From: an uncultured Latescibacterota bacterium
Lineage (GTDB): Bacteria; Latescibacterota; UBA2968
NCBI GenBank assembly: GCA_958295785.1
Contig: OY282377.1
Location: 3,454,385-3,518,384, forward strand
Direction: 5' to 3'
Length of the DNA: 64,000 nucleotides
Of this stretch, positions 2,921 through 16,251 are shown piece after piece. Within the stretch, counting starts at the first letter, position 1. Each line of letters starts with the position of its first letter. The notes beneath the pieces were generated by a model. The model saw only the letters and a list, made by a program, of their open reading frames with translations, made no database searches and had not been told where the DNA came from. Position numbers and translations under genes: made by a program.

Positions 2921-3700
2921 ATGGCACTATCCGACCACATGCACTGGTCGTTTCAATACGACGGGAGAAGCCAGAGGCCGCATTTTTGCAGACAGTTGAT
3001 GGATGTTTTGCGCCAACAGGATCGATCTCAAGATGGCGATAGGTACGCGATTTTGCCGAATTATTGGAAGGGATACAAACGCGCAGACGAAATGGCGGAG
3101 GGGGTTGATCTGGCTATCGGCGAGGCCGCGATAGACAAAAGGCGCGAGGCGTCGGGGAACTGGCGTTACGACGTTCGGGTTTTGAATACGACGAGCGGTG
3201 AAAATTTGCACTTTGACTTCTGTTGTGCAGACGATGACTTTCGCACCTTGTTGGACACCTGGCGCGTAAGGGCGATCAATGGCGCGGGGGATGGATATCG
3301 CACCTTCACCTGCGAGGGGCGTATTGCAGATCGACAACAGGTCGCGCTCGTGGTCAATGGCGTCACATTGCCAGTCGGGCGTTTTGATCAATCGCCCGAC
3401 GCGACCTGTAACTGGGCGCTGTTCGACGTGATCCCCCGTCTGGCCCCTCGCCTAAAAGCGTCTGGCGAACGGGTTTCTCTGGGGATTTTGGAAGATTTGG
3501 AAAAAGTGCGTGCGCCCGCGTGCATCGGCTTTTTGGAAGACTGGGTTATGCCACTCGATGGCGGGGCGTTGGAACTCTCTGGATTTTTCGTCTATGGCGC
3601 GGGCATGCCGCCTTCGTATTGGTGGTTGGATCAACGCCCGCGGGTGGTGATCGCATCCACGACATTCCAAACCTTTGTGCTGGAAGGAGGCGCGGCATGA
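2921..3700 (+). CDS. Protein of unknown function, translationally coupled to a sulfatase
   Basis: This is a 259-residue soluble protein that I do not recognise. There is no signal peptide or membrane segment. The C-terminal half has a repeated hydrophobic pattern ending in FVYGAGMPPSYWWLDQRPRVVIASTTFQTFVLEGG, suggesting a beta-rich fold. AGAGGA lies nine bases before the ATG. Its stop codon overlaps the start of the sulfatase gene (ATGA at 3697-3700), so it probably works in the same process, perhaps binding or processing a sulfated substrate. That is inferred only from the coupling. GC-rich codon use matches the sulfatase and not the preceding ComF/SLOG pair. Confidence 0.7.
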   Translation: MALSDHMHWSFQYDGRSQRPHFCRQLMDVLRQQDRSQDGDRYAILPNYWKGYKRADEMAEGVDLAIGEAAIDKRREASGNWRYDVRVLNTTSGENLHFDFCCADDDFRTLLDTWRVRAINGAGDGYRTFTCEGRIADRQQVALVVNGVTLPVGRFDQSPDATCNWALFDVIPRLAPRLKASGERVSLGILEDLEKVRAPACIGFLEDWVMPLDGGALELSGFFVYGAGMPPSYWWLDQRPRVVIASTTFQTFVLEGGAA

Positions 3701-5145
3701 GTGGTCGCCCGAACATCCTGTTTATCAACACCGACCAACACACATGGGACGCGATATCGGCTTATGGCAACGCGCATGTGCAAACGCCAAATATCGACCG
3801 CCTGCACGCCAATGGCATGTCCTTTATGCGATCTTATTGCAGCGATCCGGTCTGCGCGCCGGCCCGTGCGAGTTGGATGACGGGGCGTTTTACGTCAGAA
3901 GCGGGCACGCCGTTCAACGGGGGCTATTTGCACGAAGACATGCCCGATTTGGGACCCATTTTGACGGCCGGCGGGTATCGGGCGATTCACTGCGGCAAAT
4001 GGCATGTGGATGGCCGCGATGTACACAGCAGCTTTGACGTGCTGTATTGCGGCCAAAGGCGCATCGGCGCGGGGGGTGGCGAATATTACGATGCGGCGAT
4101 GACCCACGCCGTGGTGGATTTTTTGACCAGCCGTGAAGACGCCGATCCGTTTTACCTGCAAGTCGGGTATGTCAATCCCCACGATATCTGCGAGTATGGG
4201 CACAACTTTGAAACAAAAGTGATGCCCGATGCCATCCGCAGGGGGATGCTCAGGGAAGCGGATTTGCCGCCCCTGCCCAAAAATTTTGAGTACGATGAAC
4301 GCGAGACGGTTTTGCACCAGGTGTGCAGGCGCGTGGATGAGTGCTTGATCCACTGGCCCATTTTGCGCGCGACGAGAACGTGGTCCGAGCGCCAATGGCG
4401 AACCTTTATTTGGCATCACCACCGGTTTGTGGAAAAGGTGGATGGCGAGATCGGCCTGATTTTGACCGCGCTTGAACAGAGTGGGCACGCAGATAATACG
4501 CTGATTATTTTCAGCGTGGATCACGGCGAAGCCTTTGGGCAACATCGTACATTCCAAAAATTTTCCCTGTACGAAGCCAGCATTCGCGTGCCGTTTATCG
4601 TATCCACACTCGGGCGCGGGTTGAATATTCCAAAAGGCGCGTTTGATCAAACGCATTTCGTGTCCGGGGTCGATCTGCTACCCACGGTTTGCGACTATGC
4701 TGGAATCGATCCGCCCGATCAGGTGCGGGGGATGAGCGTGCGACCGCTCGTCGAAGGACGCAATGTGGCATGGCGCGATTTTGCCTTTGTCGAGAGCAAT
4801 TACTGGGGCCGCGCCCTGATTTTTGATCGGTATAAATACGTTGGTGAGTATATTCCGCATGGAAACGAAAAAGACCTGTTGCCGCCTGGCCCGGATCCCC
4901 AACGTATCGGCCTTGAACAACTTTTCGATTTGCAGGCAGACCCCGCCGAGACGCGCAATCTCGCTTATGACAAACCGGATGTGTTGATGCAATGCCGCCA
5001 GACCTTGCTGAATTTTGAAGCGGAGTTGGAACGGCGGCGCGTCACCCAGGCGCGGCCCGCGCAACGAATTGGCGAATGGGCACAGCGGATTCGGGCGCAC
5101 TGGGACGCACATCCCGCATTGGACGCGATGCGGATTCGGAGTTGA
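3697..5145 (+). CDS. Cys-type sulfatase (alkaline phosphatase superfamily)
   Basis: This 482-residue protein begins SGRPNILFINTDQHTWDAI, with the metal-binding Asp of the family. The maturation motif CAPARASWMTG places the formylglycine precursor at Cys53 (C-x-P-x-R). Later landmarks are IHCGKWH, IFSVDHGEAFGQH with the second metal site, and RDFAFVESNYWGRALIFDRYKYV near the C-terminus. It would cleave sulfate esters after a formylglycine-generating enzyme converts Cys53; no such enzyme is in the window. No signal peptide is seen, so it appears cytoplasmic. The start at 3697 has GGAAGGAGG upstream and overlaps the stop of the preceding gene. It is followed 50 bases later by a GH32-like gene on the same strand. 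Confidence 0.92.
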   Translation: MSGRPNILFINTDQHTWDAISAYGNAHVQTPNIDRLHANGMSFMRSYCSDPVCAPARASWMTGRFTSEAGTPFNGGYLHEDMPDLGPILTAGGYRAIHCGKWHVDGRDVHSSFDVLYCGQRRIGAGGGEYYDAAMTHAVVDFLTSREDADPFYLQVGYVNPHDICEYGHNFETKVMPDAIRRGMLREADLPPLPKNFEYDERETVLHQVCRRVDECLIHWPILRATRTWSERQWRTFIWHHHRFVEKVDGEIGLILTALEQSGHADNTLIIFSVDHGEAFGQHRTFQKFSLYEASIRVPFIVSTLGRGLNIPKGAFDQTHFVSGVDLLPTVCDYAGIDPPDQVRGMSVRPLVEGRNVAWRDFAFVESNYWGRALIFDRYKYVGEYIPHGNEKDLLPPGPDPQRIGLEQLFDLQADPAETRNLAYDKPDVLMQCRQTLLNFEAELERRRVTQARPAQRIGEWAQRIRAHWDAHPALDAMRIRS

Positions 5146-5195: not shown

Positions 5196-6749
5196 ATGGA
5201 CACACCGGACTACACGTCACTCGTGCCGCACTACACATTTCCAACCGCGCTGGAGGAACAGCGCGAGGCACTGGCGACCAATCCGCTGTTGCAGCGGATG
5301 AAGGATGCGCGGAAGGGATATGCGGGCGATCCGCACAGGCCGATCTATCACTACGTGAACCCGGAACACACGCTCAACGATCCCAATGGGCTTTGTTTTT
5401 GGCAGGGGCGATGGCATTTGTTTTATCAGGCGTATCCCCCAGAAGACCCGCGCCAGCACTGGGGCCATGCGGTCAGCCGCGATTTGATCCACTGGGAAGA
5501 TTTGCCCTACGCGATTTATCCCCATCCCGAACGCTGCTGTTTTTCGGGAGCAACGCTCGTGGAAGAAGATCGCGTCATCGCCATGTATCACGGCACAGAA
5601 GTCGGCAATATGGTGGCTATATCGCGCGACCCCCTCTTGTTGAATTGGGAGAAAGTGACCGGACGCGCCGTGATTCCGATGAAGAATCCCGATGGCTCTG
5701 TGCCGCCCTATCGGGTATTTGATCCGTGTATATGGAAAAAAGGCGATTTTTATTATTCGCTTTCGGGCGGCACTCTGCCCGGGCCGGGTGGCAAACGCAC
5801 GCGCGCAAATTTTTTGCTCCGCTCGCCCGATTTGGCAAATTGGACGTATTTGCATCCGTTTGTGGAAGATGACCGCTTTACACTGGTCGGCGACGATGGC
5901 GCGTGTCCCTATTTCTGGCCCATTGGCGACCGCCATATCTTGCTCTTTTACAGCCACATGAGCGGCGGGCAATATCTGTTGGGCGATTGCGATACCGAGC
6001 GCGACAAGTTTGTCGTGACCGCGCATGACAAATGCAATTTTGGCCCCTCCGGGCCATGCGGGGTCCACGCGCCTTCGGCAACGCCCGACGGCGAGGGCAA
6101 TATCATCGTGATTTTCAATATGAATCCGGGAAAGCCGACAGAGAATTGGAATCAGATTATGACCTTGCCCCGCAAGTTGACGCTTGTGGGCGAAGAGGAG
6201 TTGCGGGTCGAGCCGGCAGGGGATGTGGCGTCGCTGAGACGCGATCGCCAGCATGTGGAGGGCATGACGCTTGCGGCCAATCGAGAGGTGGTGCTCGACA
6301 ATATTCGGGGCAATGCGATGGAGATCGCGGCCGAGATCGATCCCAAAAACGCGCAGATGGTCGAGATGGATGTGTTGCGGTCGCCAAATGCAGAGGAGGT
6401 GACGCGCATCGTATTTTTCAAAGACCGCGGGTTTAGAAATCGGGAGTTGAACACGCAGAAGAGTTTGATCACCATCGATTCCTCGCGTTCTTCCATTTTG
6501 CCCGATGTGCGTACCCGCGCACCCGAGACCGCGTCTGTTTATATCGCGCCGGATGAGACCCTGAAGTTGCGCGTGTTTGTCGATAAGAGCGTGGTGGAAG
6601 TGTTTGTCAATGGCAAACAGTGCGTGGCCTTGCGCGTGTATCCCGGGCGCGAAGATAGCGTCGGCGTTTCCCTGCGGTCACAAGGCCAAGACTGCGAACT
6701 CATTTCGCTCGATGCGTGGCAGATGGCGGATATTTACGCGAGTCAGTGA
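5196..6749 (+). CDS. GH32-like protein (five-bladed propeller plus GH32 C-terminal domain) with altered active site
   Basis: This is a 517-residue protein. The GH32 nucleophile motif NDPNG is intact (HTLNDPNGLCFW, about residues 64-75), and the C-terminal beta-sandwich is clear (RVFVDKSVVEVFVNGK). GH32 enzymes hydrolyse fructosides such as sucrose, inulin and levan. Two catalytic motifs differ: RDP reads VFDP in PYRVFDPCIW, and ECP, which carries the acid/base Glu, reads ACP in GDDGACPYFW. The protein may therefore have changed chemistry or be a binding protein. There is no signal peptide. The ATG at 5196 has AAAGGA upstream. It follows a sulfatase gene and ends directly against the convergent PhyH gene. 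Confidence 0.82.
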   Translation: MDTPDYTSLVPHYTFPTALEEQREALATNPLLQRMKDARKGYAGDPHRPIYHYVNPEHTLNDPNGLCFWQGRWHLFYQAYPPEDPRQHWGHAVSRDLIHWEDLPYAIYPHPERCCFSGATLVEEDRVIAMYHGTEVGNMVAISRDPLLLNWEKVTGRAVIPMKNPDGSVPPYRVFDPCIWKKGDFYYSLSGGTLPGPGGKRTRANFLLRSPDLANWTYLHPFVEDDRFTLVGDDGACPYFWPIGDRHILLFYSHMSGGQYLLGDCDTERDKFVVTAHDKCNFGPSGPCGVHAPSATPDGEGNIIVIFNMNPGKPTENWNQIMTLPRKLTLVGEEELRVEPAGDVASLRRDRQHVEGMTLAANREVVLDNIRGNAMEIAAEIDPKNAQMVEMDVLRSPNAEEVTRIVFFKDRGFRNRELNTQKSLITIDSSRSSILPDVRTRAPETASVYIAPDETLKLRVFVDKSVVEVFVNGKQCVALRVYPGREDSVGVSLRSQGQDCELISLDAWQMADIYASQ

Positions 6750-7916
6750 TCAGTGGTCACCGGCCACCGGTGCCTCGCCTGCTGCTCGGCGTTCCAATTC
6801 GCCGCGCCAACCGATAACTTTTCCGGCTTTGATGTGCCGGATGTCAAACCCCGGGTAGCGGTCTTCGAGCGCGTCCCCCAACTTTTGCGTTTCGGCCCAG
6901 CGGTCCCATGCGGTCTGCATCCACTCGTGTGGCAAAGCATCGCGCACGGCGGGATCGAGTTGCCACGCATGGCGCACGTCTGCCACGGACGGTTCTCCGG
7001 TGAACGGGCCTGACCACTTTGACCAACCGATAGACAAGGTGTTGCGCTCGCGGTCGGGGACCGTGTGTCCCGTGTGGATGGTGGTCCCATTGCGGATGAG
7101 GGCTTCCCCGGCTTTGAGGCGGATTGCAACTTGGTTTGGCAAGGGGTCTTCCCCGTTCCAACTGGGGGTATGCGGCACCCCTTGTTCTTTCATCGCTTTT
7201 GGCAAGAGCACGTCGTGCTCATAAGGTGTGCGCCATCGGTTGTGGCTGCCGGGGATGAGCTCGTGGCATTCGTCATCGGTCAATGCCAAGAACATGCTCA
7301 CGCCGTTCCGCTGTGTGAGGGCCTTCGCGTTGTTTGCGCGGATTTCTTGCCAGCGGCGTTTTTCCACCTCCTCGGAATAAGCCTCTGGGCCTTCCCCGCG
7401 CACTTCCCGCTGTGCAAAGTAGGGTTTTCCCGTGCCCCACCACGTCACGTCCCTGTGCCAACTGAGTTTGTTCTCGCGCTGCCGGGGGTTGCACCACAGC
7501 AACAGGCCACTCAACGTCATATCCTCTGGCTGAAGCCCGTGACACCACGAGGAGACGAAGGTGAGAAAATCGGGCGAGCCGTGGAACTCGGCAAAGCAAG
7601 GCTCTCCAAAAGCGGGATGGATGAGGCCCCGGATCGCCCAGGGCTCGTCGTTGCCCGTGCGATGCACATAGCCTTTCGAGCAGTCGATGGTGTCGTAGCC
7701 ACTTTCGGGCGCGCACGCCTCGGTCACGCGGCGACCCGCCTCTCTGAGAACGGGGATCCACGGATTATCGACAAAGTCGGTGATGATGACAAACCCGTGT
7801 TCCTTCAAGTGGGCCAACCGCTCTGGCGTGGCCCCATGCGCCGCGAGTTCCGGCTTGGCGTCTGCAAAGGCCGTGGCGCGGTAAGACTCAGACGTAGGTG
7901 CTTGAACCTTGTCCAT
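6750..7916 (-). CDS. Phytanoyl-CoA dioxygenase (PhyH) family Fe(II)/2-oxoglutarate oxygenase
   Basis: This is a 388-residue protein. The first two iron ligands are in SWHRDVTWWGTG (H-x-D), the distal His in RNGTTIHTGHTVPDR, and a 2-oxoglutarate-binding Arg follows in RERNTLSIGW. The N-terminal HLKEHGFVIITDFVD is a common PhyH opening. Such enzymes hydroxylate lipids, amino acids or small natural products in the cytoplasm. The ATG at 7916 has AAGGAG six bases upstream; the earlier in-frame ATG at 7958 lacks one. A strong promoter lies about 170 bases upstream (8088-8115), leaving a long untranslated leader. Its stop abuts the stop of the GH32-like gene on the other strand. Confidence 0.88.
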   Translation of the reverse strand: MDKVQAPTSESYRATAFADAKPELAAHGATPERLAHLKEHGFVIITDFVDNPWIPVLREAGRRVTEACAPESGYDTIDCSKGYVHRTGNDEPWAIRGLIHPAFGEPCFAEFHGSPDFLTFVSSWCHGLQPEDMTLSGLLLWCNPRQRENKLSWHRDVTWWGTGKPYFAQREVRGEGPEAYSEEVEKRRWQEIRANNAKALTQRNGVSMFLALTDDECHELIPGSHNRWRTPYEHDVLLPKAMKEQGVPHTPSWNGEDPLPNQVAIRLKAGEALIRNGTTIHTGHTVPDRERNTLSIGWSKWSGPFTGEPSVADVRHAWQLDPAVRDALPHEWMQTAWDRWAETQKLGDALEDRYPGFDIRHIKAGKVIGWRGELERRAAGEAPVAGDH

Positions 7917-7971
7917 TGTGACTCCTTTCGCCCCATGCACTGCGGGGCCAAAATACACGACAAAAATGCGA

Positions 7972-8497: not shown

Positions 8498-8552
8498 CCG
8501 AGGGCTATCATTTTGACTCGGGAAATTGTCCAATTACAACATGGAGGTCATC

Positions 8553-9329
8553 GTGGAATTAAGCGAGCGTCAGAAGCGATTTTTTTACAAAGAGGGCTAT
8601 CTCAAAGTTGCGGGCGCGGTGCCTCGCGTGATGGTGGATGCGGCGCGGCAAGTGATCAACGCCGAAATGGGCAAGGGGAATACCAATCCGTTCTCCGAGA
8701 TTAACACCGCGCCGGTCATTGCGGATTTGTTCAACGAAACGCCCGTGTTTTCCCTGCTCGAATCCGCATTGGGAAAAGGCAATTTGCAGCGTTGTCAAGC
8801 GGGCGGCATTAAGCTCAATTTTCCGCGCGCGCCCGGCAGTTCGGCAGATGCGTTGACAAAGAAAATTGGATGGGGCAGAAGCGGTGGGCATCTCGATGGG
8901 ATCAAGGCCGTGGGCGACCGCCTGCGCGGGTTGCGCGAAGACGGGACGTATAACCGCAATTTTACGTCGTTTGCCACGGTGTATTTGGACGACGTGCCCG
9001 TGCCCAATGGCGGCAATTTTACCGTGTGGCCCAAGTCGCATCACTTTTTTGAGAATTATTTCAGAAAACACGGGCACCAAATTTTGGACGACCACATGCC
9101 CCATGTCACATTGCCCGAAGATCCGGTATTTGTGACTGCCAAAGCGGGTGACGTGATTTTTGCCCATCATGCAATGGTGCATACGGGAGGCCCCAACACC
9201 TCGCCAAATATCCGGTACGCGGTGATTTTCAGGGCCAAACACGCACGGATCAACGACATTGGATTCGATGCGTTCACGGATATATGGCGCGAGTGGGATG
9301 GCGTGCGCGAAGCCGTGGGCATTGCGTGA
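8553..9329 (+). CDS. Phytanoyl-CoA dioxygenase (PhyH) family oxygenase
   Basis: This 258-residue protein has iron ligands in GGHLDGIKAVG (H-x-D) and HHAMVHTGGPNTSPNIRYAVIFR, which holds the distal His and the co-substrate Arg. The N-terminal LSERQKRFFYKEGYLKVAGAV is the standard PhyH opening. I chose the GTG at 8553 because GGAGG ends five bases before it; an ATG at 8541 overlaps that Shine-Dalgarno and the earlier TTG at 8526 has none. It shares only the family fold with the PhyH protein at 6750-7916, so the two probably act on different substrates. The next gene follows 54 bases downstream. Confidence 0.87.
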   Translation: MELSERQKRFFYKEGYLKVAGAVPRVMVDAARQVINAEMGKGNTNPFSEINTAPVIADLFNETPVFSLLESALGKGNLQRCQAGGIKLNFPRAPGSSADALTKKIGWGRSGGHLDGIKAVGDRLRGLREDGTYNRNFTSFATVYLDDVPVPNGGNFTVWPKSHHFFENYFRKHGHQILDDHMPHVTLPEDPVFVTAKAGDVIFAHHAMVHTGGPNTSPNIRYAVIFRAKHARINDIGFDAFTDIWREWDGVREAVGIA

Positions 9330-12407: not shown

Positions 12408-13136
12408 TCAATATCGCCAATTTTCATGGGCGAGCGGCGCGCGATTGAGTTCGTCTCTGTATAAATGCCATTGGGGCATCAGGGCATCCATCAGCGCACG
12501 GAAACGCGCATTGTGGTGTCGTTCCAAGAAATGGACCATCTCGTGGACGAGAATGTACGCCAAGCACGAGGGCGGCTTCTTGACCAGTTCGAGATTCAGC
12601 CAAACGCGCCCGGCACGCGCGTTGCAGGATCCCCAGCGGGTCTTCATCCTTTTGATACGCACGTCATTGACAATCACGCCAACCCTCGCTTCCCACTTGG
12701 CGACGAGTGCGGGCAACGCGCCGCGGAGTTGGCCGCGATACCAGCCATACAGTACGGCCTCTCGCGTATCTCGGTCGTTGCCCCGGCGAACGCGCAATTC
12801 CATGGTGGCGTTATTGGGCAAACGCACCGCCGGCGGGCCATTGTGTTCAATAATGTCGATCCGATAGCGTCGGCCCCAAAAATAATGGCTTTCGCCGGTT
12901 ATGAACTCCCGTTGAGACTGGCGATCCTGTTGCGCGAACTCGGCCTGCTGCCGGCGAATCCACCCCAAGCGCGAAATGATGGCCAGGCGCACGGCGTCAT
13001 CGTCGAGGCGCAGCGGCGAGGCCACCCGCACGCGACCGGTTGGCGGATAAACGCCCACATGCAAATTCTTAATGTCTTTGCGAACGATCTCCACAGAGAT
13101 GCCACGCACATCGATATATCGCCGATCAGTAGTCAT
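12408..13136 (-). CDS. DUF45/YgjP-type metallopeptidase
   Basis: This is a 242-residue protein. The zinc-protease motif HEMVHFLERHHNARF (HExxH with a downstream His) and the preceding MKTRWGSCNARAGRVWLNLELVKKPP are diagnostic of the YgjP/WLM-like DUF45 family. Genes of this family are often found beside type I restriction subunits. Here the ATG at 13136 lies 11 bases inside the hsdR 3' end, so translation is coupled to HsdR. Its role in restriction systems is unknown; turnover of the restriction subunit, as ClpXP does in enteric bacteria, is a reasonable guess but only a guess. Confidence 0.88.
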   Translation of the reverse strand: MTTDRRYIDVRGISVEIVRKDIKNLHVGVYPPTGRVRVASPLRLDDDAVRLAIISRLGWIRRQQAEFAQQDRQSQREFITGESHYFWGRRYRIDIIEHNGPPAVRLPNNATMELRVRRGNDRDTREAVLYGWYRGQLRGALPALVAKWEARVGVIVNDVRIKRMKTRWGSCNARAGRVWLNLELVKKPPSCLAYILVHEMVHFLERHHNARFRALMDALMPQWHLYRDELNRAPLAHENWRY

Positions 13137-16100
13137 CTCGCGCCTTTACAATCTTGAATATCGCCTTTGCGAGACACTCGTCTCCCCCGAGCTCCGACTT
13201 GATGGCTTTGCAGATGCGCCGTTCCTTGAACGTGTTTCCCCTCCAGTCCGCCATCATGGTGCCACGAACCGCAATGTCGATAGCCAAGGCCGTTGTTTCG
13301 GCCGTACTGGCGGCGGTATCGGCGACCCGCTCTCGGCGCACGAGTTGGTCTAAGCCCTCGACGTCCTTCAAGTTGTCGTACAGGGCGCGATGGGCGCGGG
13401 TCCGCAGGGCAATCGGGTATGCCCCGTGCTCCGGCTGGCTCACCTGTTTCGCCAACGCGACGATCCGCGCCAGATAGGCTTTGTAATCTATGGCCGCCTG
13501 CTTGCGTTGACAGATCAGGGCGTCGAGCAAGGCCGACATTTTCTCGTAGTACTTTGGGTTGACGGCCGTCTCGTCGATGATGATTCGCCGCACATTGTTC
13601 TCGATAGTCTCGGCCATTGCTTCTCGATTCTCGCGAATGCCCGCGGGCAAGGACGCCAGCGCGTTCTCCCCGCGCTTGGCGATCAGTTGCACGAGCGTCT
13701 GATTGTCGAATGTGGAGATCTGCGCGGTCTCCTCGGCCCGGATGTACATGTCGAGCAAATCCCTCATCGCCGGTTCGTACATCTTCAGGTCGATATAGTC
13801 GCCGCTGGCGAGCTTGACCTCTGCACGCACCTTTTCGCAGTGGGCCACCTCGTCTTTGATCGCCCGCGCCTCGGCGTCGGCATAGCCTGCCTCTCGCATC
13901 TCGTTGGCCAAATTGGCGTAGGCGCGCAGGAACGATCCGACGAGTTTGTAGAGCGTCACGCGCTTGCGCTCGTTGTCCTTGCGTTGCTCGCCACTTTCCG
14001 CAACGCAGAAGAAGCGCAGATAGGCCGCCGTATCGCGCGGGGGCGCGACCGGCTCGCACAGCGCCGCGATCTCCTCGCGGACTTCCTCGAGTCGCTCCCG
14101 CCCCTTTTGCAATCGATCCTCGAGCAATCCCCTGACGTCTTCCGCGTCATAGCCATCAAACGCCTCGCCGGTATAATCGCCGATAGCCTGCTCGAGCGAC
14201 CGGAACAGATCCTTGTAGTCGATGACGTAGCCGTATTCCTTGTCTTCGCCATGCAGGCGGTTGACCCGGCAGATCGCTTGGAACAAGCCGTGGTCGCGCA
14301 TTTGCTTGTCGATGTAGAGATAGGTCGCGGGCGGGGCGTCAAAGCCGGTCAGCAACTTATCCACCACGATCAGGAGTTTCATCAGCCTCGGCTCTTCGAC
14401 GAATCGCTTTTTCACCTCCCGCTCGAATTGCTCCACCCTGTACATCGCCGCGTCTTCCGACGCGTTGAAGTGCGCCGCGAGCATCTTCCGGTAGATGTCG
14501 TATTGGCGCAATTTCTCGGTGAGGCCCTCGCCGGACTCTTCGCCCTTGATGTCCGACACTGCCGGTTTGTAAGACGTAACGATGGCGCACTTGCCCGCCA
14601 AGTCGGTTTGCTGAAACAACTCGAAGAGGCGACAGGCCGAATAGATGCTGTTTGAGACGAGCAGGGCGTTGCCGCGACCGCTCTTGAGCCGATCTCGCGT
14701 TTCCATGTCGAACAGGATGTCGGCGACGATCTTCTCCAGTCGCCCCCGCGAACTCATCACCTTTTGCATCGTGCCCCAGCGTTGCTTGAGTTGGGCCTTT
14801 GCGATATCGGTCAATCCTCGGGTCTTGCTCTCGAACCACTGATCGATCTTGGCCTGCGACGCGATGTTCTGATCGATGTCGCGCGCCTCGTAGCGCAGGT
14901 CGAGGACGACGCGATCATGCACGGCCTCGTCGTATTTGTAGGTGTGGATGTACGGCCCGAAGGTCTCGATGCTGCGCTGCTTGTCGTCCTTGAGCAACGG
15001 CGTCCCGGTGAAGCCGATCAGCGTCGCCGCAGGCAACAGTTCTTTCATCGCCGCGTGGAGCTTGCCCGACTGGGTGCGATGGCATTCATCCACAAAGACG
15101 AACAACTCGCCTTTGGCGCGAAATCCCGCCGGCAAATTGTTGCGAATTTCTTTGAGGAATGCGTCGAGGTCGCCATCTTCCGACGCGCCAAACTTGTGGA
15201 TCAACGAGCAGATCAGCCATTCGTCGCCCACGTTGAGCACGCGCGCCAGATCGGCACCGCTCGTCGTGCGATAGATGTTCTCGCTGACGCCCTTGAAGAC
15301 CCTTTCGATCTGCTCGTCCAGTTCAGTGCGGTCCGTGACGATCAGCACCCTGCCATCGGTTACGCGCTCGCGGATCCACTTTGCCAGCCAGACCATCGTC
15401 AGGCTTTTGCCGCTGCCTTGGGTGTGCCAGATGATGCCGCCCTCGCGATGCTGAACGCGCTGTTGTGCGGCCCACACCCCGAAATACTGATTGTGGCGGC
15501 AGGTCTTTTTGCCGCCTGAATCAAAGACCGTGAAGTCGTGCGCGATCTCCAGCAACCGCTCCTTGCTGCAAAGTTGACTCAGTTCCCGCAACAACGGGTT
15601 GTCGCCTGCGTCTAAGTGGGCGTCTGTTTCTTTCCAGCGCAGATAGTATTTCTCCTGTGTCTTGATCACGCCATAGCGCAACCCTTCGGTTTCGTTGCCG
15701 GCCAGCACGAGTTGAACCGTGGTGTAGAACGGGCGGATGAATTCTTTTTTCTGGCTGTCGAGGTGTTGCCGAATGCCCTCGGCCACCGATACTGTGGACC
15801 GCTTCAACTCCAGCACGCCCAAGGCGATGCCGTTGACGTAGAGCACGAGGTCGGGCCGTCTGGCGTTCTCTCCGGCAATGGTAACCTCCTCGGCGATAGC
15901 AAAGGCGTTGTTGCCCGGGTTTGACCAGTCGATCAGATAGACGGTCTGGGTTTGCCCGCCGACGTTTGGACGCACCTTGACGCCGTATCGGAGCAGGCCA
16001 TACACCTCGCGGTTGGCGTCGTAGAGCGTTTTGTTGATGCCGAGTGCCGCGTCCAATTTGTGCAATGCCTTGTCAATGGCTTTGTCGCCATGCCCTTGGC

Positions 16101-16251
16101 GCTTCAGCCAGTCGGTGAGCAACGCCTTCTCGACATTGGCGTTGTCGCGCCGACCCTTCCAGTTGCCGAGGTAGGCATAGCCGAGCGCGTCTTGAAAGAA
16201 CGCGACCACGCGCCGTTGTGTAAAAATTTCTTTTTGACCAACTGTGCTCAT
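13126..16251 (-). CDS. hsdR: Type I restriction enzyme, R (endonuclease/translocase) subunit
   Basis: This is a 1041-residue protein of normal length. The N-terminal nuclease is seen as Asp134 with Glu148-Leu-Lys150 (PDLVLYVNG..VLELK). The SF2 translocase follows: Walker A TQGSGKS at 277-283, DECH at 388-391, and TGTPL as motif III. The C-terminal helical part binds HsdM. HsdR cuts unmethylated DNA only within a complex with HsdM and HsdS. Its ATG overlaps the stop of the DUF4062 gene (ATGA at 16248-16251). No inactivating change is visible, but the partner hsdM gene at 21720-24139 is frameshifted, so the complex probably cannot form. Confidence 0.95.
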   Translation of the reverse strand: MSTVGQKEIFTQRRVVAFFQDALGYAYLGNWKGRRDNANVEKALLTDWLKRQGHGDKAIDKALHKLDAALGINKTLYDANREVYGLLRYGVKVRPNVGGQTQTVYLIDWSNPGNNAFAIAEEVTIAGENARRPDLVLYVNGIALGVLELKRSTVSVAEGIRQHLDSQKKEFIRPFYTTVQLVLAGNETEGLRYGVIKTQEKYYLRWKETDAHLDAGDNPLLRELSQLCSKERLLEIAHDFTVFDSGGKKTCRHNQYFGVWAAQQRVQHREGGIIWHTQGSGKSLTMVWLAKWIRERVTDGRVLIVTDRTELDEQIERVFKGVSENIYRTTSGADLARVLNVGDEWLICSLIHKFGASEDGDLDAFLKEIRNNLPAGFRAKGELFVFVDECHRTQSGKLHAAMKELLPAATLIGFTGTPLLKDDKQRSIETFGPYIHTYKYDEAVHDRVVLDLRYEARDIDQNIASQAKIDQWFESKTRGLTDIAKAQLKQRWGTMQKVMSSRGRLEKIVADILFDMETRDRLKSGRGNALLVSNSIYSACRLFELFQQTDLAGKCAIVTSYKPAVSDIKGEESGEGLTEKLRQYDIYRKMLAAHFNASEDAAMYRVEQFEREVKKRFVEEPRLMKLLIVVDKLLTGFDAPPATYLYIDKQMRDHGLFQAICRVNRLHGEDKEYGYVIDYKDLFRSLEQAIGDYTGEAFDGYDAEDVRGLLEDRLQKGRERLEEVREEIAALCEPVAPPRDTAAYLRFFCVAESGEQRKDNERKRVTLYKLVGSFLRAYANLANEMREAGYADAEARAIKDEVAHCEKVRAEVKLASGDYIDLKMYEPAMRDLLDMYIRAEETAQISTFDNQTLVQLIAKRGENALASLPAGIRENREAMAETIENNVRRIIIDETAVNPKYYEKMSALLDALICQRKQAAIDYKAYLARIVALAKQVSQPEHGAYPIALRTRAHRALYDNLKDVEGLDQLVRRERVADTAASTAETTALAIDIAVRGTMMADWRGNTFKERRICKAIKSELGGDECLAKAIFKIVKARDDY

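Follow-up and report, generated by a model that had tools for sequence, protein, structure and literature searches.

How does a protein with a GH32 fold act, if it acts at all, once the acid/base glutamate and the RDP arginine of the family are gone? The question is raised by one gene in the window, i.e. the whole 64,000-nucleotide stretch of DNA analysed here, which comes from an uncultured Latescibacterota bacterium. A first-pass annotation made from the letters alone had read the NDPNG motif and the C-terminal sandwich as intact, ECP as changed to ACP and RDP to FDP, and had proposed a changed reaction or a binding role. Our preferred reading, to which we give about even chances, is that the protein is an active, furanoside-directed glycosidase or transglycosidase with a GH32 fold, from a sister branch of the family in which the acid/base function would have moved to a pair formed by Asp234 and His254. 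The gene and its domains, as found by the ORF listing, Pfam, AlphaFold and the fold match, are as follows:

5196..6749, plus strand: GH32-like protein (517 aa), a member of the Asp/His ('ED') clade
5349..6212, plus strand: GH32 N-terminal (propeller) domain, residues 52-339 (Pfam PF00251 Glyco_hydro_32N, E 8.7e-36)
6225..6722, plus strand: GH32 C-terminal domain, residues 344-509 (Pfam PF08244 Glyco_hydro_32C, E 6.3e-23)

The reading frame is uninterrupted from the ATG at 5196 to the stop at 6749 (a longer form, from an in-frame ATG at 5076, is also listed and overlaps the sulfatase gene), and no signal peptide was seen when the N-terminus was inspected by eye. Both Pfam domains score above cut-off, so that propeller and C-terminal sandwich are present, the sandwich in agreement with the first-pass annotation, and these two domains alone are listed in a Pfam scan of the protein taken to E 1, with no GH43 match. 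NCBIfam, also taken to E 1, gives two matches, to the ScrB model TIGR01322 (E 2.8e-43) and the BfrA model NF041092 (E 7.2e-37), both far under their curated cut-offs: 148.3 bits against 356.4 for ScrB sucrose-6-phosphate hydrolases, and 127.2 against 900 for BfrA. Neither sucrose-6-phosphate hydrolase nor beta-fructosidase is thus a name that this protein has earned. Its nearest labelled relatives are Latescibacterota MAGs (90% identity over residues 2-516), and the gene is under purifying selection, with a dN/dS of about 0.04-0.05 against two close relatives (dN 0.061 and dS 1.45 for L002, dN 0.065 and dS 1.32 for L006); four more distant relatives were also compared, with saturated synonymous sites in two of the four. 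A pseudogene or a sequencing artefact was rejected on account of the open frame, the same motif in 80 of 80 loci, and the dN/dS near 0.045.

The AlphaFold model (50 sequences) is a confident GH32 fold (mean pLDDT 92.0, pTM 0.92). In a fold comparison by VIA-align, 1uyp and 7vco come top with Z 37.0 each, over 408 and 452 aligned residues, and all 50 entries listed are GH32-type enzymes (Z 28.7-37.0); GH117 and GH43 are absent among these 50, which is evidence neither way. The best solved relatives by sequence are 7vco, 1uyp and 1w2t, i.e. GH32 beta-fructosidases of F. perrara (7vco) and T. maritima (1uyp and 1w2t), with which the protein shares the fold, the nucleophile Asp, the second Asp and both Pfam domains, but at 24-26% identity and without the ECP Glu, the RDP Arg and the Tyr at 291, having Asp234 and His254 instead. 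Sequence alignments to these relatives place Phe175 of FDP opposite the RDP Arg and Ala236 of ACP opposite the ECP Glu, which confirms both exchanges of the first-pass annotation. The positions concerned are:

5376..5390, plus strand: NDPNG, with Asp62 as the kept nucleophile
5451..5453, plus strand: Arg86; its loop is shortened, and in the majority of classical rows that loop holds a Trp (alignment with duplicates not removed)
5718..5729, plus strand: FDPC where RDP is expected, with Asp176 kept and Phe175 for Arg (alignment of 137 ED and 32 classical rows)
5892..5897, plus strand: Asp233-Asp234, of which Asp234 is fixed in the ED clade
5901..5909, plus strand: ACP for ECP, with Ala236 at the acid/base position, where predicted strand 236-243 begins
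5955..5957, plus strand: His254, invariant in the ED clade, after predicted strand 246-253; a candidate acid/base or its partner
6066..6068, plus strand: His291, at the place of a Tyr conserved in classical GH32

Is the exchange restricted to one genome? The exchanged motif occurs in all of the 80 loci retained (of 188 confirmed), at 64-90% identity, and these loci fall by label into at least nine phyla: Poribacteria (37), Chloroflexota (18), Latescibacterota (7), Planctomycetota (4), Gemmatimonadota (3), Gammaproteobacteria (3), Verrucomicrobiota (2), Armatimonadota (2), Truepera (Deinococcota, 1), Nealsonbacteria (1) and 'bacterium' (2), MAG labels being fallible, as for L007, labelled Gemmatimonadota at 89% identity. 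To the 80 were added deeper relatives, three plasmid-borne GH32 genes and 30 GH32N loci from a genome profile search, in which 94 of 386 genomes had GH32N matches; the 30 were strong-match loci, 29 of them readable, and the classical sample is small and biased to strong Pfam matches. An unrelated ORF of L165 (3015-3884) was excluded from later counts, and four ORF pieces shorter than 300 aa as well as exact duplicates were left out of the alignment. No ORF was obtained for L172 (in-frame TGA), whose GH32N match (genome G306, 0.8 Mb) holds eight in-frame TGA, as expected if TGA is read as an amino acid there. With near-copies removed, the final count set comprises 137 ED rows (the window protein included) and 32 classical rows; the class was assigned by residue 236, so that the Glu counts follow from the definition and the other columns are independent of it.

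In this set, the residues of the nucleophilic half are almost universally kept: Asp62 in 136/137 ED rows (the single exception, L147, is gapped at that column) and 32/32 classical rows, and Asp176 in 136/137 and 32/32. Arg at 175, found in 29 of the 32 classical rows (the remaining three have RDP displaced by an alignment gap), occurs in none of the 137 ED rows, and Tyr at 291, found in every classical row, is likewise absent from all ED rows, 104 of which have His there. Position 236 reads A in 117 ED rows, S in 14, M in five and G in one. Another Glu at the acid/base position, which the first-pass annotation had named as the finding that would speak against it, was not found, and a Glu there was rejected for the ED rows, the nearest carboxylates being 233 (D 103, E 33, S 1) and 234, always D. 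The exchange is not private to the window protein: the rows without Glu share the loss of Arg and Tyr.

What do the ED rows have in place of these residues? Asp234 is present in 137/137 ED rows vs 1/32 classical rows, most of which are gapped at that place (26/32 at position 233), and His254 in 137/137 vs 0/32, with 13 of those 32 gapped there and three (L153, L163, L173) having a His a few columns away. The alignment is loose around these two positions, the classical loop ahead of ECP being shortened or aligned otherwise, and in some classical proteins acidic residues closely precede ECP (DEDGPIWECP in L152, HDGVWECP in L129, GDECP in L167). In L175, from a genome outside the phylum, the single Ser at 233 goes with retained Asp234 and His254; Tyr187 is present in all 137 ED rows. 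Clustering at 60% identity, into 19 ED and 26 classical clusters, gives the same dichotomy: among the residues invariant over the 19 ED clusters, the rarest in the 26 classical clusters are His254 (0), Asp234 (1, with 21 of the 26 gapped), Tyr187 (6), Asp45 (7) and Trp508 (8). As sampled, the ED clade is one that has two invariant residues of its own and lacks two defining catalytic features of GH32. In a tree of 70 rows, from which five short rows and rows at least 82% identical to a retained one were excluded, a single branch separates 58 ED from 12 classical rows (support 100/99, and 100% of 200 bootstrap trees).

The first branch on the classical side of this tree is L152 (Natrinema plasmid, 5224-7446), a haloarchaeal GH32 with ECP kept, RDH for RDP and DED upstream of ECP. 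Within the ED clade, the deep branches have a far more variable pocket (Asn61, Gln78, FSG motif), and this variability, together with L113 lacking Asp176, means that a single mechanism for all ED proteins is not assured. One such deep branch (L122, L148, L151) has WDPCAA for NDPNG and no aligned FSG motif, with Asp234 and His254 present. Eight Poribacteria loci (L008:10746-12368, L009:10196-11881, L017, L021, L022, L023, L025 and L056) hold a second ED copy downstream of the first, 41-45% identical to the query, with GDANG or GDPNG for NDPNG.

How could these residues work together? Passages of a GH32 study give the Asp of WMNDPNG as the nucleophile, the Glu of EC as the acid/base and the Asp of RDP as the transition-state stabiliser, and place the RDP Arg and a Tyr next to the acid/base Glu, whose pKa the Arg is proposed to tune (PMC3360783). 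Because Arg and Tyr are described there as neighbours of the acid/base, the joint loss of Arg, Glu and Tyr would be coherent; that this Tyr corresponds to alignment position 291 is our own reading. With both the ECP Glu and the RDP Arg missing throughout the sampled clade, an unchanged GH32 acid/base step seems unlikely in it. In the model, predicted strands 236-243 and 246-253 are consecutive, with a two-residue turn between them, and in such an antiparallel hairpin residue 236 starts one strand and residue 253 ends the other; therefore Asp234 and His254 should flank the empty acid/base position. From this strand order we infer that the two would be in contact with one another and with the substrate. 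On this reading the active site keeps its nucleophilic half (Asp62, and Asp176, whose GH32 counterpart holds hydroxyls of the ring) and has its acid/base half exchanged, the RDP Arg, the ECP Glu and the adjacent Tyr giving way to Asp234 and His254 beside the vacancy. His254, held and tuned by Asp234, would protonate the leaving group, or else Asp234 itself would do so with His254 tuning it, and Asp62 would then attack as in GH32. The invariant Asp and His could also be structural or metal-binding.

An alternative is an ordinary beta-fructosidase, in which Asp234 stands in for Glu236 from two residues upstream and His254 has no role. It would agree with the invariance of Asp234, Asp being a normal acid catalyst, and with a main-clade pocket in which Gln78, Trp89 and Ser117 are invariant and Asn61 almost so (50-sequence alignment), but it leaves unexplained that His254 is just as invariant, in 19/19 clusters at 60% identity too. 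It also sits poorly with the rest of the pocket: Trp59 (37/42 classical rows) and the Trp of the 78-88 loop (31/42) are both missing in 97/97 main-clade rows (identity of at least 59%), the loop Trp occurring in 10 of 41 deep ED rows (duplicates included in these loop counts). We therefore regard it as very unlikely.

A His general acid paired with Asp, as proposed for the ED clade, has counterparts in other families. GH117 has a five-bladed propeller as well, and the fold of the GH3 NagZ-type N-acetylglucosaminidases is unrelated to that of the GH32-like protein. In GH117 3,6-anhydro-L-galactosidase, according to excerpts of a QM/MM study, calculations support the role of a His302/Asp320 dyad as the general acid; the retaining GH3 NagZ and GH156 are named there as likely parallels (PMC11574756). 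The likeness to NagZ, a proposed Asp-His general acid in a retaining enzyme, concerns chemistry only, and GH117 differs in that it inverts, as described in the same excerpts (PMC11574756), whereas a GH32-type Asp62 in the window protein would suggest retention. Pfam detects just GH32 domains in the window protein.

Could the fold be catalytically dead instead, binding a furanosyl end group as a regulator or as the carbohydrate-binding partner of another enzyme? The residue lost, the acid/base Glu, is the one replaced to capture substrates in crystals of GH32 enzymes (E203A, E203Q and E201Q entries), and one ED protein is built as a binding module might be: in L052:64-3777 (plus strand, labelled Verrucomicrobiia), a single ORF joins an ED domain, a 151-aa module and a GH32 domain that by eye is classical (NDPNG, RDP, ECP). 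The module is 56% identical to one before the ED domain of L046, and it recurs in L041 (before the ED domain) and in L164, within a classical GH32 protein; in L070 and L078, LamG matches under cut-off stand in front of the ED domain. Such company with classical GH32 domains, in the single chain of L052 and through the module of L041 and L046, also counts in favour of the glycosidase reading. In other phyla, the ED domain lies within longer proteins that look secreted, and for these long forms a fructan-like substrate is possible. The window protein is, by contrast with such a module, free-standing and the sole GH32N match of its genome (a single contig of 5.66 Mb), so that there is no classical GH32 partner there. 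The retention of Asp62 and Asp176 in 136 of 137 rows each, superfluous for a pure binding protein, speaks for catalysis, as do the fixed Asp234 and His254 and the low dN/dS; a binding role seems to us unlikely on balance. We infer from these sequences that the protein is probably catalytic, and 'changed machinery' seems to fit better than 'lost machinery'. Of the first-pass proposal of a changed reaction or a binding role, the absence of Glu and Arg stands and extends across the clade as sampled; the paired gain of Asp234 and His254 and the replacement of Tyr291 had been missed.

Which substrate would such an enzyme take? Arg86 is found in 97/97 main-clade rows, 13/41 deep ED rows and 2/42 classical rows (duplicates included). 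In a passage on AtcwINV1, W47 contacts fructose O6 (PMC3360783); if W47 is the loop Trp, as we think, the outer end of the ring would be read differently here, where it perhaps bears a negative group. Plain sucrose is an unlikely substrate of the window protein. The first-pass annotation had taken the two genes in front as a hint of a modified fructoside:

2921..3700, plus strand: front gene, first of an apparent three-gene run, unmatched in Pfam and NCBIfam scans taken to E 1
3697..5145, plus strand: sulfatase gene (Pfam Sulfatase, E 7.6e-35; CAPAR in the sequence), 50 bases before the GH32-like start

The ATG at 3697, which overlaps the stop of the front gene, is our choice of sulfatase start, the ORF listing having a longer form from 3520. 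Neighbours were surveyed in 81 loci, the window included, with one query per family, flanks of up to 8 kb and often shorter, and one member of each family identified by Pfam or NCBIfam. As a substrate clue the two genes in front are weak: the front gene has relatives only in L005 and L006 among the 81 loci (3/81), and its AlphaFold model is poor (pLDDT 45.2, 3 sequences); the sulfatase, with that of the window as query, recurs in 27/81 loci, immediately ahead of the GH32-like gene in the window, L005 and L006, immediately after it in L043, and elsewhere 2-7 kb off, and the window genome has 93 sulfatase match rows.

Other neighbours recur, above all sugar-acid dehydratase and fucosidase genes. 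A UxuA-like gene (Pfam-checked for L030, L044 and L047) occurs in 23/81 loci, 21 from Poribacteria and two from Caldilineaceae, a galactonate-dehydratase-like gene (NCBIfam-checked for L003) in 7/81 (L002-L006, L008, L053), a GH29-like gene upstream in 5/81 (L002-L006), a GH95-like gene in 7/81, and an SDR gene in 11/81, six of these being Chloroflexota loci in which it lies at most 100 bases away. The GH29 and galactonate-dehydratase-like genes are upstream in five of the six close loci with upstream DNA and not in the window (L007 has no upstream DNA, and the flanks of L083-L091 are too short to judge these neighbours), and the matches to that GH29 in the window genome are all distant (28-46% identity). 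Excerpts of work on reef sponges report GH95 and GH29 as enriched in sponge-associated lineages (PMC8163846).

Several further genes were noted around these loci. Two PhyH-family genes of the window (6750-7958, minus strand, and 8526-9329, plus strand) have counterparts next to the GH32-like gene in L002 and L004-L007, the first of them in L003 too. A gene of about 230 aa behind the GH32-like gene occurs in L009 (9526-10245) and 17 other Poribacteria loci, without Pfam match in the L009 and L010 members, and an ORF of L018 (10744-11385, plus strand) starts like this gene and ends like the GH32-like C-terminus, a fusion or an assembly artefact. Farther on in the window, a type I restriction R subunit gene (13126-16251, minus strand) adjoins a YgjP-like metallopeptidase gene (12408-13136, minus strand).

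These surroundings bear on a third possibility, that the reaction itself has changed: the enzyme would be a phosphorylase, the lost negative charge admitting phosphate or another anion, or would cleave an anionic (sulfated or C6-carboxylate) furanoside and feed a sugar-acid dehydratase pathway. It counts in its favour that phosphorylase activity has been reported for GH3 N-acetylglucosaminidases whose acid/base is a His. So do the frames of L002, L008, L009, L018, L044 and L060, which open no more than 10 codons ahead of the match and leave no room for a signal peptide, although the N-termini of L041, L046 and L052 look signal-like by eye, and phosphate coupling is of little use extracellularly. 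Arg86, invariant in the main clade at a loop that bears a Trp in most classical rows, would suit an anionic substrate. The UxuA-like gene is at most 400 bases away in 20 of the 81 loci (and farther in three), and the galactonate-dehydratase-like gene stands upstream in six (L002-L006, L008) and downstream in L053. The 21 Poribacteria UxuA loci, however, resemble one syntenic block rather than independent cases and count as about one observation, and UxuA-family genes are common, with 11 match rows in the window genome and none near the window gene. Such a change of reaction thus strikes us as rather improbable. A bolder version, which we likewise hold to be improbable, is that a sister branch of GH32, present in many phyla, acquired an Asp/His dyad in place of the Arg/Glu/Tyr acid-base cluster of clan GH-J and a new reaction along with it, be it phosphorolysis or anionic furanoside cleavage in sulfated, fucose-bearing glycans; we know of no earlier case of such a dyad swap in clan GH-J.

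In the titles, abstract openings and some passages covered of the openly accessible literature, passages of PMC6306507 among them, no GH32 clade with such an exchange was found. One genome study, as excerpted, takes Latescibacteria GH32, which may or may not belong to the ED clade, as sucrose-specific (PMC4454575). A Pfam GH32 label is easily read as invertase, and the ED clade, if it does work by an Asp/His pair, is a warning that the use of sucrose or fructan by sponge symbionts should not be deduced from Pfam alone; the window protein should for now best be named GH32-like rather than a GH32 fructosidase. The ED gene is also present in L078, by its label from Chthonomonas calidirosea, and in L045 and L053, labelled Litorilinea aerophila; their sources are presumably relatives of cultured bacteria and may supply an expressible protein. 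If the Asp/His pair is true, the clade would be a natural experiment in acid/base replacement within a well-studied clan.
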